The notes below the pieces were generated by a model, which had not been told where the DNA came from, did not search any database, and saw only the letters and a program-made list of their open reading frames with translations. Shown here one piece after another: positions 18,208 through 22,356 of a stretch of 64,000 nucleotides of DNA (position 1 is its first letter; each line of letters starts with the position of its first letter). Source of the stretch: Cognatiluteimonas profundi. GTDB taxonomy: Bacteria > Pseudomonadota > Gammaproteobacteria > Xanthomonadales > Xanthomonadaceae. The translations under genes were made by a program, and so were the position numbers. The DNA lies in NCBI RefSeq assembly GCF_009792795.1, contig NZ_VKHQ01000003.1:62001-126000 (forward strand), written 5' to 3'.

Positions 18208-18795
18208 ATGGACGATCACATCGGCACAACCGTCGTTCCACGCGCGAACGACGCCTTGTTGGATGGCTTCGACACGCCACGCCTGCACCTGCGTCCGATC
18301 GGCGAGGGCGATGAAGTCCTGTATTGCCGGCTCTACACCGATCCGGGATTGATGCGGCATATCGCCGAGCCGATGACGATGGAGGCGGCGAAGCGGAGTT
18401 TCCAGGCAGCCCTCAAGCAACAGTCGCCGACCCGGCAACGCTGGATCGTCTGCGGGCAAGGCCAGGCGGAGGGGGTGGGCCTGGTGGGCTTGTTCGTCGA
18501 CAAGCTCGAGCCGGACGTTGCCGAGATCGGCGTGATGCTGCTGTCGGCCGGGCAGGGCAAGGGCTATGGCACGGAATCGATGGCGGGTGTCGTCGACAGG
18601 GCATTCACTATGATGCCGCTGCGCCTGCTATGGATTAGGCAAAACGCCACGAACATCGCTGTCGACGGGATGATGACCAAGCTCCGGTTTGAGCGCGGTG
18701 ACTCCGCCCGCATCGGCAGCCATGAGCGTTATTGGGAATTGATCCGCGAGCGCTGGCATCCCAAGCCATTGGAGGCCGCCGGGCAAACCGGATAA
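18208..18795 (+). CDS. GNAT-family N-acetyltransferase (RimJ/RimL-like)
   Basis: 195 residues with the RimJ/RimL layout: TPRLHLRPIGEGDE near the start, GLVGLFVDK, EIGVMLLSAGQGKGYGTES (the acetyl-CoA-binding loop) and a C-terminal YWELIRERW. It transfers an acetyl group to an unknown amine. It starts 8 bp after the diguanylate cyclase and ends 26 bp before the borosin-type methyltransferase, all on the same strand. It may be a tailoring enzyme of the peptide cluster or an unrelated housekeeping gene; the sequence does not decide. Confidence 0.85.
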   Translation: MDDHIGTTVVPRANDALLDGFDTPRLHLRPIGEGDEVLYCRLYTDPGLMRHIAEPMTMEAAKRSFQAALKQQSPTRQRWIVCGQGQAEGVGLVGLFVDKLEPDVAEIGVMLLSAGQGKGYGTESMAGVVDRAFTMMPLRLLWIRQNATNIAVDGMMTKLRFERGDSARIGSHERYWELIRERWHPKPLEAAGQTG

Positions 18796-18821
18796 ATTAG
18801 GGGTTTCCACGGGGGTTAGCC

Positions 18822-19634
18822 ATGACACCACAAGGCACACTGGCCTGCGTCGGCCTGGGCATGATGCTCGGCGCCCATGTCAGCCCGCGTTCGCGAAGCC
18901 ACATCGAACAGGCCGACGTGGTCTTCGCCCTGGTCTCCGATCCGCTGGTGGAGCTGTGGGTGCAGGACATGCGCGCGGACACCCGCAGCCTGCAGCCCTA
19001 CTACTGCGAAGGCCAGTCGCGGCTGACGTCCTACAAGCAGATGGTCGAGGCGATGCTGGTCGAGGTCCGCGCGGGGCGCCGGGTCTGCGGCGTGTTCTAC
19101 GGCCATCCCGGCGTCTTCGCCCTGGTCCCGCACAAGGCGATCGCCGGCGCCCGGGCCGAAGGCTTCGAGGCGCACATGGAGCCGGGCATCTCGGCCGAGG
19201 ACTGCCTGTACGCCGACCTGGGCATCGACCCGGGGACCTTCGGCTGCCAGCATTACGAGGCCAGCCAGCTCATGTTCTACAAGCGCCGGATCGACCCATC
19301 GGCCTATCTGATCCTCTGGCAGGTCGGCATGGCCGGCGACCGGTCGCTGGCGCGCTTCTCGACCGGCCCCGCCTACCGGCGCCTGCTGGTCGAGCTGCTG
19401 GCCAAGGACTACCCGGCCGACCATCCCGTGATCGCCTATGAAGCTGCTACCCTCCCGATCACGGCGCCCCGCATGGAGACGTTGCGCCTGTCGGACCTGG
19501 TGGAAGCGGACCTGCGCCTACAGACGACGCTGGTCTTTCCCCCGGCCCGGCCAATGGAGCGGAACCAGGCGATGCTCGACCGGGTCGCGGAACTAGATCG
19601 TCAGGCCGCCGCACAACCTGCTATCAACGCGTAA
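18822..19634 (+). CDS. split-borosin-type peptide backbone alpha-N-methyltransferase
   Basis: 270 residues, a tetrapyrrole-methylase-fold enzyme without any fused peptide. The SAM-binding GxG is at VGLG. The set of residues known to shape borosin active sites is in place: Tyr60-Tyr61, Arg67 in GQSRLTSY, Tyr71 and Tyr93 in GVFYGHPGVF. EPGISAEDCLYADLGIDPG and the ILWQVG strand also match the fungal OphMA and bacterial SonM group rather than the cobalamin or siroheme methylases. These enzymes use SAM to methylate backbone amide nitrogens of a precursor peptide. Three small paralogous genes follow immediately (32 bp gap), as in bacterial split borosin clusters with separate substrates. Confidence 0.85.
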   Translation: MTPQGTLACVGLGMMLGAHVSPRSRSHIEQADVVFALVSDPLVELWVQDMRADTRSLQPYYCEGQSRLTSYKQMVEAMLVEVRAGRRVCGVFYGHPGVFALVPHKAIAGARAEGFEAHMEPGISAEDCLYADLGIDPGTFGCQHYEASQLMFYKRRIDPSAYLILWQVGMAGDRSLARFSTGPAYRRLLVELLAKDYPADHPVIAYEAATLPITAPRMETLRLSDLVEADLRLQTTLVFPPARPMERNQAMLDRVAELDRQAAAQPAINA

Positions 19635-19666
19635 CACCCACAGAAGTTCAAAAACAAAGGACAAAC

Positions 19667-20177: not shown

Positions 20178-20245
20178 AGGGCGCCTGTCGCAAGTTCGAA
20201 AACCGGACGCAAGTCGTTCGGCCATTTCTGTAGGGGGATAAGACC

Positions 20246-20506
20246 ATGTCAGCTGCAATCCGGTTTCTTGAAACAGTGGGCAGCAATGCCTTGAGTGCTG
20301 CCAACTACGAAGGCGCTGTTGCTGGCCTGGAAGTGGACGAACTGCATCGAAAGGCGTTGCTGCAGAGAAATCCCGCTGCCCTCAACGATATTCTGGGGGG
20401 TCGGCCGACGATGTTCTTCGGGGTGCTGGCGCCGGAGGAGCAGCCGTTGGAAGATGAGCCGTTCGAGGATATTCCCGACGAGCTCCCGGACGAATCCGCG
20501 AATTAA
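20246..20506 (+). CDS. putative borosin precursor peptide 3 (86 residues)
   Basis: The third paralogue: AAIRFLETVGS, LSAANYEGAVAGL, DELHRKALLQ, AALNDILGGR (to residue 53), then the patch TMFFGVLA (55-62). Unlike the others it ends with a 24-residue acidic, proline-containing tail (PEEQPLEDEP, DELPDESAN). The tail could be a follower region removed after modification. The ribosome site is AGGGGGATAAG. The stop lies 20 bp before the TPR-GGDEF gene, suggesting one transcript. Confidence 0.75.
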   Translation: MSAAIRFLETVGSNALSAANYEGAVAGLEVDELHRKALLQRNPAALNDILGGRPTMFFGVLAPEEQPLEDEPFEDIPDELPDESAN

Positions 20507-20526
20507 GGTTTCCCAGGCACTGCACG

Positions 20527-22356
20527 ATGCTTGCGCGCGTCGCCCGCGTTCTCGTTCTTATTGCAATCATGCTTGGCTCGCCGCCGTCGTGGGGTGAGCC
20601 CGTGTCCGTTGGGACGCTGATCGTTCGCGCAGAAAAATCCAGAAGTTCCGAGCCAGCGGTTTTCGCAAAGACCTTGCAAGAACTGAACCAACACGTTGAT
20701 CAGGCGAGCCCTGATCAACGGCTCGATATCGGCTACCTGAATGCATATCAGGAGGTCTATTCCGGAAACTATGACAAGGGCGCGAGTCTGGCTAAACAGC
20801 AGATCGAGCTGGCCCCAGACCCCGATCGCCAATTTCGAGCTGGCGTGCTGGTATTCAACAGCTACGCATTGAACGGTCGGTTCAATGAAGGGCTGCGCCA
20901 GATGGAACAGACGCTGTCGTTGCTTGATGCGGTCAAGGACCGCGAGTTGCGCGAACAGGGCCTCCTCGCTGCAGCGACTTTGTACAACCAGCTTGGACAA
21001 TTCGAGCTCGCCAAGCGCTATGCCGACTCGGTCCTGCCATTTCCGTCGACCGGTCGGATCTTGTGTTTTGCGCATTACCTGAAGTTCGAAGCACAGTTAC
21101 ATCTCAACCAGATGCCCGCTGATGATTCCCCGTTGCTGGATGGAATCGCGCAGTGCAAGGGGCAAAACGAAGTCATGATGGCCAACATGATTCGCGGAAC
21201 GCTGGCGCGAAAGCGAATCGTCCAAGGACATTCGACCGAGGCATTGGTGGATTTACAGGCCAATCTGGACGAGGTCCTGGCAACGCACTACCCCCGGCTT
21301 ATCGCCGAAATCCGCTCGCTGATCGCTGAATTGAAGCTCGGCATGAATGATCTTGCCGGCGCCGAAACCAATGCGTTGGCGGCTGTGGCCCCAACCCCCA
21401 ATCTGGAAAATACCCCTCCCGTCGTCAGCGCTTATAAGACGCTGTACATGGTTGCCGAGCGGCGGGGCGATTACGCAACTGCGCTTGCCTATTACAAGCA
21501 TTTTGCCAACGCGGAAAAGGGTTACCTCAATGAGGTCAAGACACGCGAGCTCGCGTACCAGATCGTCCGAAATGAAAACCTGCAGAAGGGCCAGCAGATC
21601 CAACTGCTGAACCGCAAGAATAACCTCCTGCAACTCCAGCAGCAGGTCGACCAGCAGTCGGCACAGAACTCACGGCTGTACATGCTGCTGTTCGCCCTGC
21701 TGGCGGCGACGATCGGCTATTGGGCCTACAAGACCAAGCGCATGCAGATGTCCGTCAGGCGCATGGCCGAGACCGATGCGCTGACCGGAATCTGCAATCG
21801 CCACCATTACACGTCGCAGGCGGAGAAGACGCTGGCGCGCTGCAAGGCGGCAGGGGAACCGGTTTCGCTGCTGATGTTCGACCTGGATTACTTCAAGTCG
21901 ATCAACGACAACTACGGCCATGTCACCGGCGACTGGGTGCTCAAGCGGGTAGCTGACGTGTGCGCGGAGCTCTGTCGCGGAATCGACCATCTTGGACGCA
22001 TCGGAGGCGAGGAATTCGCCATCCTCCTGCATGGCTACGACCTCAAGGCGGCAACGCGCATGGCCGAGGATTGCCGTGTGCGCCTGTCGCGCATCGATCC
22101 GCTGCCCAGCGGCTATACGTTCCCCATCAGCGCGAGCTTCGGCGTCAGCTCCAGTGCGACGTCGGGCTACGACCTGGACAAGCTGCTGTCGCACGCGGAC
22201 CAGATGCTGTATCGCGCCAAGCGCGAGGGACGCAATCGCGTGCGTGCCTACGTGCCGGATACGTCGGCGGAACTGACTGGTATCAACTTTGGCAAGGATC
22301 GCCGCCAGCCTGCCGAACCCGAGGCGACGTCGTCGCAGGATTCCTTGAGGGCCTGA
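20527..22356 (+). CDS. TPR-sensor diguanylate cyclase downstream of the borosin genes
   Basis: 609 residues: a signal peptide (MLARVARVLVLIAIMLG...SWG), a periplasmic helical repeat region of TPR type (about 30-350, e.g. NAYQEVYSGNYDKGASLAK, RRGDYATALAYYKHF), a coiled coil rich in Gln/Leu, one membrane segment near residues 383-402 (LYMLLFALLAATIGYWAY), and a GGDEF domain with RIGGEEF and an intact RGID inhibitory site. It should make c-di-GMP in response to a periplasmic partner. It follows precursor 3 by 20 bp. The first half looks less GC-rich than the flanking genes, which may mean different ancestry. Confidence 0.88.
   Translation: MLARVARVLVLIAIMLGSPPSWGEPVSVGTLIVRAEKSRSSEPAVFAKTLQELNQHVDQASPDQRLDIGYLNAYQEVYSGNYDKGASLAKQQIELAPDPDRQFRAGVLVFNSYALNGRFNEGLRQMEQTLSLLDAVKDRELREQGLLAAATLYNQLGQFELAKRYADSVLPFPSTGRILCFAHYLKFEAQLHLNQMPADDSPLLDGIAQCKGQNEVMMANMIRGTLARKRIVQGHSTEALVDLQANLDEVLATHYPRLIAEIRSLIAELKLGMNDLAGAETNALAAVAPTPNLENTPPVVSAYKTLYMVAERRGDYATALAYYKHFANAEKGYLNEVKTRELAYQIVRNENLQKGQQIQLLNRKNNLLQLQQQVDQQSAQNSRLYMLLFALLAATIGYWAYKTKRMQMSVRRMAETDALTGICNRHHYTSQAEKTLARCKAAGEPVSLLMFDLDYFKSINDNYGHVTGDWVLKRVADVCAELCRGIDHLGRIGGEEFAILLHGYDLKAATRMAEDCRVRLSRIDPLPSGYTFPISASFGVSSSATSGYDLDKLLSHADQMLYRAKREGRNRVRAYVPDTSAELTGINFGKDRRQPAEPEATSSQDSLRA
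20694..20720. repeat. 11-bp perfect inverted repeat inside the TPR-GGDEF gene
   Basis: CGTTGATCAGG and CCTGATCAACG are perfect inverted arms around a CGAGC loop, about 170 bp into the coding sequence. It encodes residues around VDQASPDQR. It could be a protein-binding site or an RNA stem, or chance. Confidence 0.6.

Follow-up and report, generated by a model that had tools for sequence, protein, structure and literature searches.

Background

The closest described relative of the system considered here is the split borosin SonM/SonA of Shewanella oneidensis, for which the key residues of the enzyme SonM (Y58, R67, Y71 and Y93) and the methylated residues of the precursor SonA (L63 and I65) have been reported (PMC8429565). 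RcbB of Vibrio vulnificus provides a case in which a tetratricopeptide repeat (TPR) domain holds back a diguanylate cyclase, a restraint that is lifted when a partner binds (PMC12282931). The literature accessible to us does not state what bacterial split borosins do in nature. Here we describe a split borosin cluster in a stretch of 64,000 nucleotides from Cognatiluteimonas profundi (assembly GCF_009792795.1, contig NZ_VKHQ01000003.1, positions 62,001-126,000 of the forward strand), hereafter called the window, to which coordinates refer unless another locus is named. The open reading frames of the cluster, all on the plus strand and separated by short gaps, encode a GNAT N-acetyltransferase, a methyltransferase (MT), three precursors and a protein with TPR and GGDEF (diguanylate cyclase) domains. 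An earlier note, made from the sequence alone, had recognized the MT, the three homologous small genes and the TPR-GGDEF gene on one strand with short gaps, and our gene set and coordinates agree with it.

In our judgement, the cluster probably makes an N-methylated peptide that acts as a signal and has a receptor of its own, a reading that draws on homology, the genes present, the catalytic residues, topology from hydropathy, co-occurrence, gene fusion, swapping of the output domain and the joint exchange of core and TPR ectodomain in Shewanella relatives. With somewhat more reserve, we favour its extension to bacterial split borosins, SonM/SonA included, which would then be strain-specific N-methylated pheromones with cognate periplasmic TPR receptors controlling cyclic di-GMP (c-di-GMP) or a phosphorelay, core and ectodomain being exchanged as one cassette. 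That the TPR-GGDEF gene likely encodes a receptor went unnoticed in the earlier note and is the most interesting part of the locus.

Joint exchange of core and TPR ectodomain

Among the Shewanella relatives, there are loci whose enzymes are 93-99% and whose GGDEF domains are 98-99% identical and which diverge solely in the precursor core (25-38% identity) and the TPR ectodomain (48-51%). Two groups with the cores FLLVNHGN and YLVISHGN occur among them. One of these loci (L147) encodes an enzyme identical to SonM at 261 of 263 residues, with a SonA-like precursor and a TPR-GGDEF gene downstream. Its comparison with L155 gave identities of 0.99 (MT), 0.96 (leader) and 0.98 (GGDEF), as against 0.48 (TPR) and 0.31 (core), and the corresponding values for L154 and L159 were 0.96, 0.89 and 0.99, as against 0.51 and 0.38. 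Pairs sharing the same core had TPR identities of 0.96-0.99 (0.99 for L147 and L156). At the DNA level, identity was about 0.9 before the core, fell there to about 0.5 and rose again where the TPR/coiled-coil part ends, giving sharp cassette borders. Since the core and the TPR part are adjacent in the gene order, a single recombination event can exchange both.

For 67 pairs with MTs at least 85% identical, the Spearman correlation of core identity was 0.86 with TPR identity and 0.40 with GGDEF identity. Partial Mantel tests supported the association of core with TPR (p = 0.001), and those of core with GGDEF and of core with MT were not significant. The window's own class (50 loci) showed the same direction more weakly (r = 0.20, p = 0.001). 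In the Shewanella relatives, the putative signal and sensor vary together between conserved flanks. This is the pattern of pheromone-receptor specificity groups and suggests that the peptides are self-recognised chemical signals. Linkage of a sensor-type gene to the peptide gene holds in these and in the other relatives described below.

Gene neighbourhood in relatives

The gene-order comparison proposed in the earlier note showed that MT, precursor(s) and TPR-GGDEF is the standard order among relatives and is kept across several families. The trio was found together in nearly all relatives, from Lysobacteraceae, Rhodanobacteraceae, Alteromonadaceae, Kangiella and Shewanella, and in a different order in Oxalobacteraceae. 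Among 149 family genomes, 58 had both the MT and the TPR domain, three the MT only, one the TPR domain only and 87 neither (MT in 61, TPR in 59), a co-occurrence with a Fisher p of 1.7e-36, uncorrected for phylogeny. For 60 of the 64 MT copies, the TPR gene was no more than 3 kb away and in the same orientation. The MT was present in 52 of the 60 genomes of the genus of G711, which we took as Shewanella from its near-SonM member, and all 30 Shewanella loci fetched had the MT, the precursor and the TPR gene. Distant borosin MTs (L070-L075) were without a TPR-GGDEF partner. The earlier note knew of no described cluster with exactly this set of genes, but the set is hardly peculiar: the MT-precursor-TPR-GGDEF arrangement is common, and relatives of the GNAT gene were located within 400 bp of the MT for 60 of 136 MT copies (a redundant set). 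Only the third precursor is rare; three precursors occurred at no other locus of the compared set, where one is usual and two are occasional.

In about 12 of the 149 genomes, belonging to several genera, the MT is fused C-terminally to the TPR-GGDEF protein in open frames of about 840-1000 amino acids (the domain order is shown for seven loci, and two fusions were checked with Pfam). The MT requires S-adenosylmethionine and must therefore lie in the cytoplasm, in keeping with its attachment to the GGDEF end of the fused protein. The fused copies cluster together, with the unfused L068 and L103 as nearest relatives (one fused group nested among unfused copies), and the order in L103, namely precursor, TPR-GGDEF, MT, is plausibly the pre-fusion state. 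The natural fusions at L076:3234-5774 and L077-L083, with TPR, transmembrane, GGDEF and MT parts in about 840 residues, have a precursor gene directly upstream where the contig reaches, and their cores (e.g. NHTIKAYD) are unlike those of the window.

The output part also changes. In L068, L069, L102 and L106, Pfam assigned HisKA, HATPase and receiver domains, i.e. a hybrid histidine kinase, to the TPR protein in place of GGDEF; the sensor is kept there and the output changed. One borosin locus, L068:4072-10020, contains two related TPR sensors, one a hybrid histidine kinase and one with GGDEF. At L111:3344-5607, a precursor and TPR-GGDEF pair is found without an adjacent MT, and the genome (G837) has the enzyme elsewhere; the orphan TPR-GGDEF copies L110 and L112-L114 had no recognisable precursor upstream. 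In an MT-positive genome without the TPR gene, L107:4479-9556 consists of a GNAT gene, a four-core precursor and the MT, followed by a C39 peptidase ABC transporter and HlyD; judged from its genes, this is a variant of the borosin cluster with bacteriocin-like export.

The TPR-GGDEF protein

The putative receptor (20527..22356, 609 amino acids), a conserved partner of the MT, begins with a signal peptide. The TPR ectodomain (residues 25-375, 20599..21651) was modelled by AlphaFold2 as an all-helical repeat with a mean local confidence (pLDDT) of 94.4, hydropathy places a transmembrane helix at 21676..21726, and the GGDEF domain follows (21766..22239; Pfam E 5e-41), with a GGEEF active site and an RxxD I-site (RGID) read from the sequence. 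The protein is thus predicted to have a periplasmic TPR ectodomain, one membrane helix and an active-type diguanylate cyclase. The relatives have similar features: of 101 examined, 96 have an N-terminal hydrophobic segment and all have a membrane helix ahead of GGDEF (positive-inside in 91); the GG[DE]EF motif is intact in 96 of 102, and 66 of 97 keep the RxxD I-site. C180 and C210 of the ectodomain were invariant in 28 relatives, and a search of the organism's own genome found no paralogue of the ectodomain. Among the structures similar to the TPR model are TPR proteins that bind peptides, such as Rap with its pheromone (4gyo, E 1e-5), a weak argument for the receptor role because TPRs look alike.

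The methyltransferase and the precursors

Against the PDB, the MT (18822..19634, 270 amino acids) matched SonM (7ltc) with E 5e-75 and the fungal OphMA/MroMA with E 1e-47 to 1e-54, and cobalamin and siroheme (tetrapyrrole) methylases matched only weakly, far below both. From the active-site set named in the earlier note (Y60/61, R67, Y71 and Y93), Y61, R67, Y71 and Y93 were invariant in 56 homologues and are equivalent to SonM Y58, R67, Y71 and Y93, but Y60 was not conserved. On these similarities the enzyme is classed as a stand-alone borosin alpha-N-methyltransferase of the SonM family (type IV split borosin, type IV-like). A separate SonM-homologous MT of similar length (about 263 residues in SonM), the catalytic set and an adjacent SonA-homologous precursor were all found, and the claim of a split borosin with separate precursors was thereby borne out, as was that of a stand-alone borosin-type enzyme. 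That the cluster makes backbone-N-methylated peptides, as predicted from these homologies, is well supported.

The three precursors were the sole family members found by a profile search of the organism's own genome, and precursors 2 and 3 are 54-55% identical to precursor 1. Precursor 1 (19667..19897, 76 amino acids; profile E 5e-23) has a SonA-like leader domain, a C-terminal core and an acidic tail; precursor 2 (19971..20177; E 3e-22) has 68 residues, and precursor 3 (20246..20506; E 4e-27) has 86 and the longest acidic tail. Neither Pfam nor NCBIfam gave a match for the precursors, and precursor 1 alone had none in the PDB, where only profiles worked: the family profile reached SonA with E 3e-11 when it contained a Shewanella row, and still with E 3e-4 when every Shewanella, Kangiella and Undibacterium row was left out. 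Matches of the profile to WD40 proteins were rejected as repeat artefacts, no stretch passing alone. The leader is predicted to be helical, and the structure model of the precursor had no significant fold match (the OphA clasp was among the top PDB matches, with E 0.7).

The position of the core was read from two sources, the alignment with the methylated L63 and I65 of SonA and the four-fold repeat of the core motif in the L107 precursor (LSCLVFTPEE, YFCWVATPEE, YFCAVNTPEL and YFCGVLTPEE), to which VFFGVFAAEE, VMFAVLAEDD and MFFGVLAPEE correspond in precursors 1, 2 and 3, respectively. Accordingly placed, the predicted cores are SNVFFGVFAA in precursor 1 (residues 54-63, 19826..19855), KQVMFAVLA in precursor 2 (residues 55-63, 20133..20159) and PTMFFGVLAP in precursor 3 (residues 54-63, 20405..20434; compare the last L107 repeat), with predicted methylation sites near G59/F61, A60/L62 and G59/L61, respectively, in a register accurate to about two residues either way. 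Leaders were more conserved than cores, which diversify faster, the reverse of our initial expectation. In the precursors of L037 and L052, long Lys/Ala/Pro tails (KKAPAKKKPAKK) replace the usual acidic tail.

Other features of the locus

The GNAT N-acetyltransferase gene (18208..18795, 195 amino acids; Pfam Acetyltransf_3, E 6e-20) is a frequent accessory gene. Downstream of precursor 1, a strong hairpin followed by TTTTG (19903..19927; minimum free energy -21.5 kcal/mol, z -4.15 for 19895-19950) is perhaps a leaky or partial terminator or an RNA end. A 7TM-GGDEF gene (16358-18199) ends 8 bp 5' of the GNAT gene, and a close relative of it lies upstream of the MT at the same-genus locus L003/L088, where two GGDEF genes thus flank the cluster. 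Elsewhere in the window (33108-36232), a KaiC-like ATPase gene (34721-36232) adjoins an unassigned gene of 538 amino acids on the same strand.

Proposed mechanism and alternative explanations

In the proposed mechanism, the MT, presumably a homodimer as SonM is, would bind the helical leader of each precursor and N-methylate the core at two or more backbone amides. The core would be cut free and reach the periplasm or the outside by means of a protease and an exporter presumably encoded outside the cluster, and would there bind the TPR ectodomain of the membrane protein encoded alongside. Binding would alter the GGDEF output and hence the c-di-GMP level, and probably the balance of biofilm and motility. 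Methylation, export, binding and the direction of the c-di-GMP change are the parts of this scheme that we infer. If the scheme is true, and these peptides are self-recognised signals feeding c-di-GMP, an abundant class of ribosomally synthesized and post-translationally modified peptides would be a new Gram-negative peptide communication system, whose ligand, receptor and output could be tested in Shewanella oneidensis, a standard laboratory organism; studies of how N-methylated peptides are recognized could also draw on the many core/receptor pairs found in nature.

Several points weigh against a signal with its own receptor. The cluster contains no exporter or protease that could bring the peptide to a periplasmic domain, and the organism's own genome has no C39 peptidase-transporter. 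Three genomes have the MT but not the TPR gene, and L107, with its four-core precursor and C39 exporter, comes from one of these three, which means that the product can also serve without a TPR receptor. The cassette swap comes from the Shewanella relatives rather than from the species of the window itself. Mantel correlations can be inflated by the TPR domain, which evolves faster than any other part of the enzyme and receptor set, and the partial form of the test is liberal. Finally, a toxin-immunity pair would swap jointly too. In this main rival explanation, the N-methylated peptide is an antimicrobial, the TPR protein protects or warns the producer and the GGDEF or kinase output is a stress response. 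The faster diversification of cores than leaders and the combination in L107 of a multi-core precursor with a bacteriocin-type exporter speak for it, but a sensor-transducer with a GGDEF or histidine kinase output is not a typical immunity protein, the normal cluster is without an exporter, and the genes are near fixation in the Shewanella-like genus; we consider it unlikely.

GGDEF proteins often adjoin the pathways that they control, and the TPR-GGDEF protein might sense some other cue and merely time borosin production, the peptide having a separate target. The fusions, in which MT and GGDEF both lie on the cytoplasmic side of the membrane, would suit such regulatory co-location, which nevertheless does not predict the joint change of core and TPR beside near-identical MT, leader and GGDEF, and we regard it as rather improbable. 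A still more doubtful proposal is that the TPR domain is no receptor but a chaperone that assists at the membrane in processing or exporting the methylated precursor: TPR superhelices bind peptides, MT fusion would tether the modification to the membrane, and core-TPR co-variation is predicted here as well, but the TPR domain is predicted to be periplasmic, and the active-type motif in 96 of 102 proteins is left without explanation. As for an ordinary tetrapyrrole methylase beside unrelated small genes and a chance GGDEF neighbour, Pfam does call the enzyme TP_methylase only; we give this practically no credence, because the similarity to SonM and OphMA with the catalytic set, the SonA-like precursors and the co-occurrence of MT and TPR contradict it.

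Comparison with known systems

The biosynthetic part of the cluster is a split borosin and thus of an already known kind. To the extent that this could be checked, neither the exchange of core/TPR cassettes nor the fusion of TPR-GGDEF with the MT has been described. Our literature search found no paper linking borosins with diguanylate cyclases or xanthomonads; the main split-borosin surveys lay outside its reach and may already mention the neighbour gene. The cluster resembles SonM/SonA in its stand-alone MT with the same catalytic residues, its short separate precursors, the helical borosin-binding leader and the C-terminal core, and the near-SonM locus likewise has TPR-GGDEF downstream. It differs in having three precursors, hydrophobic cores (of the MFFGVLAP type) followed by acidic tails and a GNAT gene in front; moreover, the SonM/SonA system has been described as enzyme and precursor alone, in a text that does not contain the word GGDEF (PMC8429565). 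With the fused borosins of the OphMA type, the window MT has its family and active site in common, but its precursors are separate, and other loci of the family fuse the MT to a diguanylate cyclase instead.

On the receptor side, RcbAB, in which TPR restrains GGDEF and a partner relieves it, is a precedent for a TPR-controlled cyclase, although the partner there is another TPR protein and not a modified peptide (PMC12282931). The Rap-Phr receptors have a TPR repeat domain of similar fold, a likeness of fold only. Rap proteins are cytoplasmic, unlike the transmembrane cyclase encoded in the window. The agr and comCD loci are peptide pheromone-receptor loci with specificity groups. The borosin loci share with them the joint variation of peptide core and sensor domain inside otherwise conserved loci, but they are Gram-negative and differ in the predicted N-methylated ribosomal peptide, the TPR ectodomain and the proposed c-di-GMP output.

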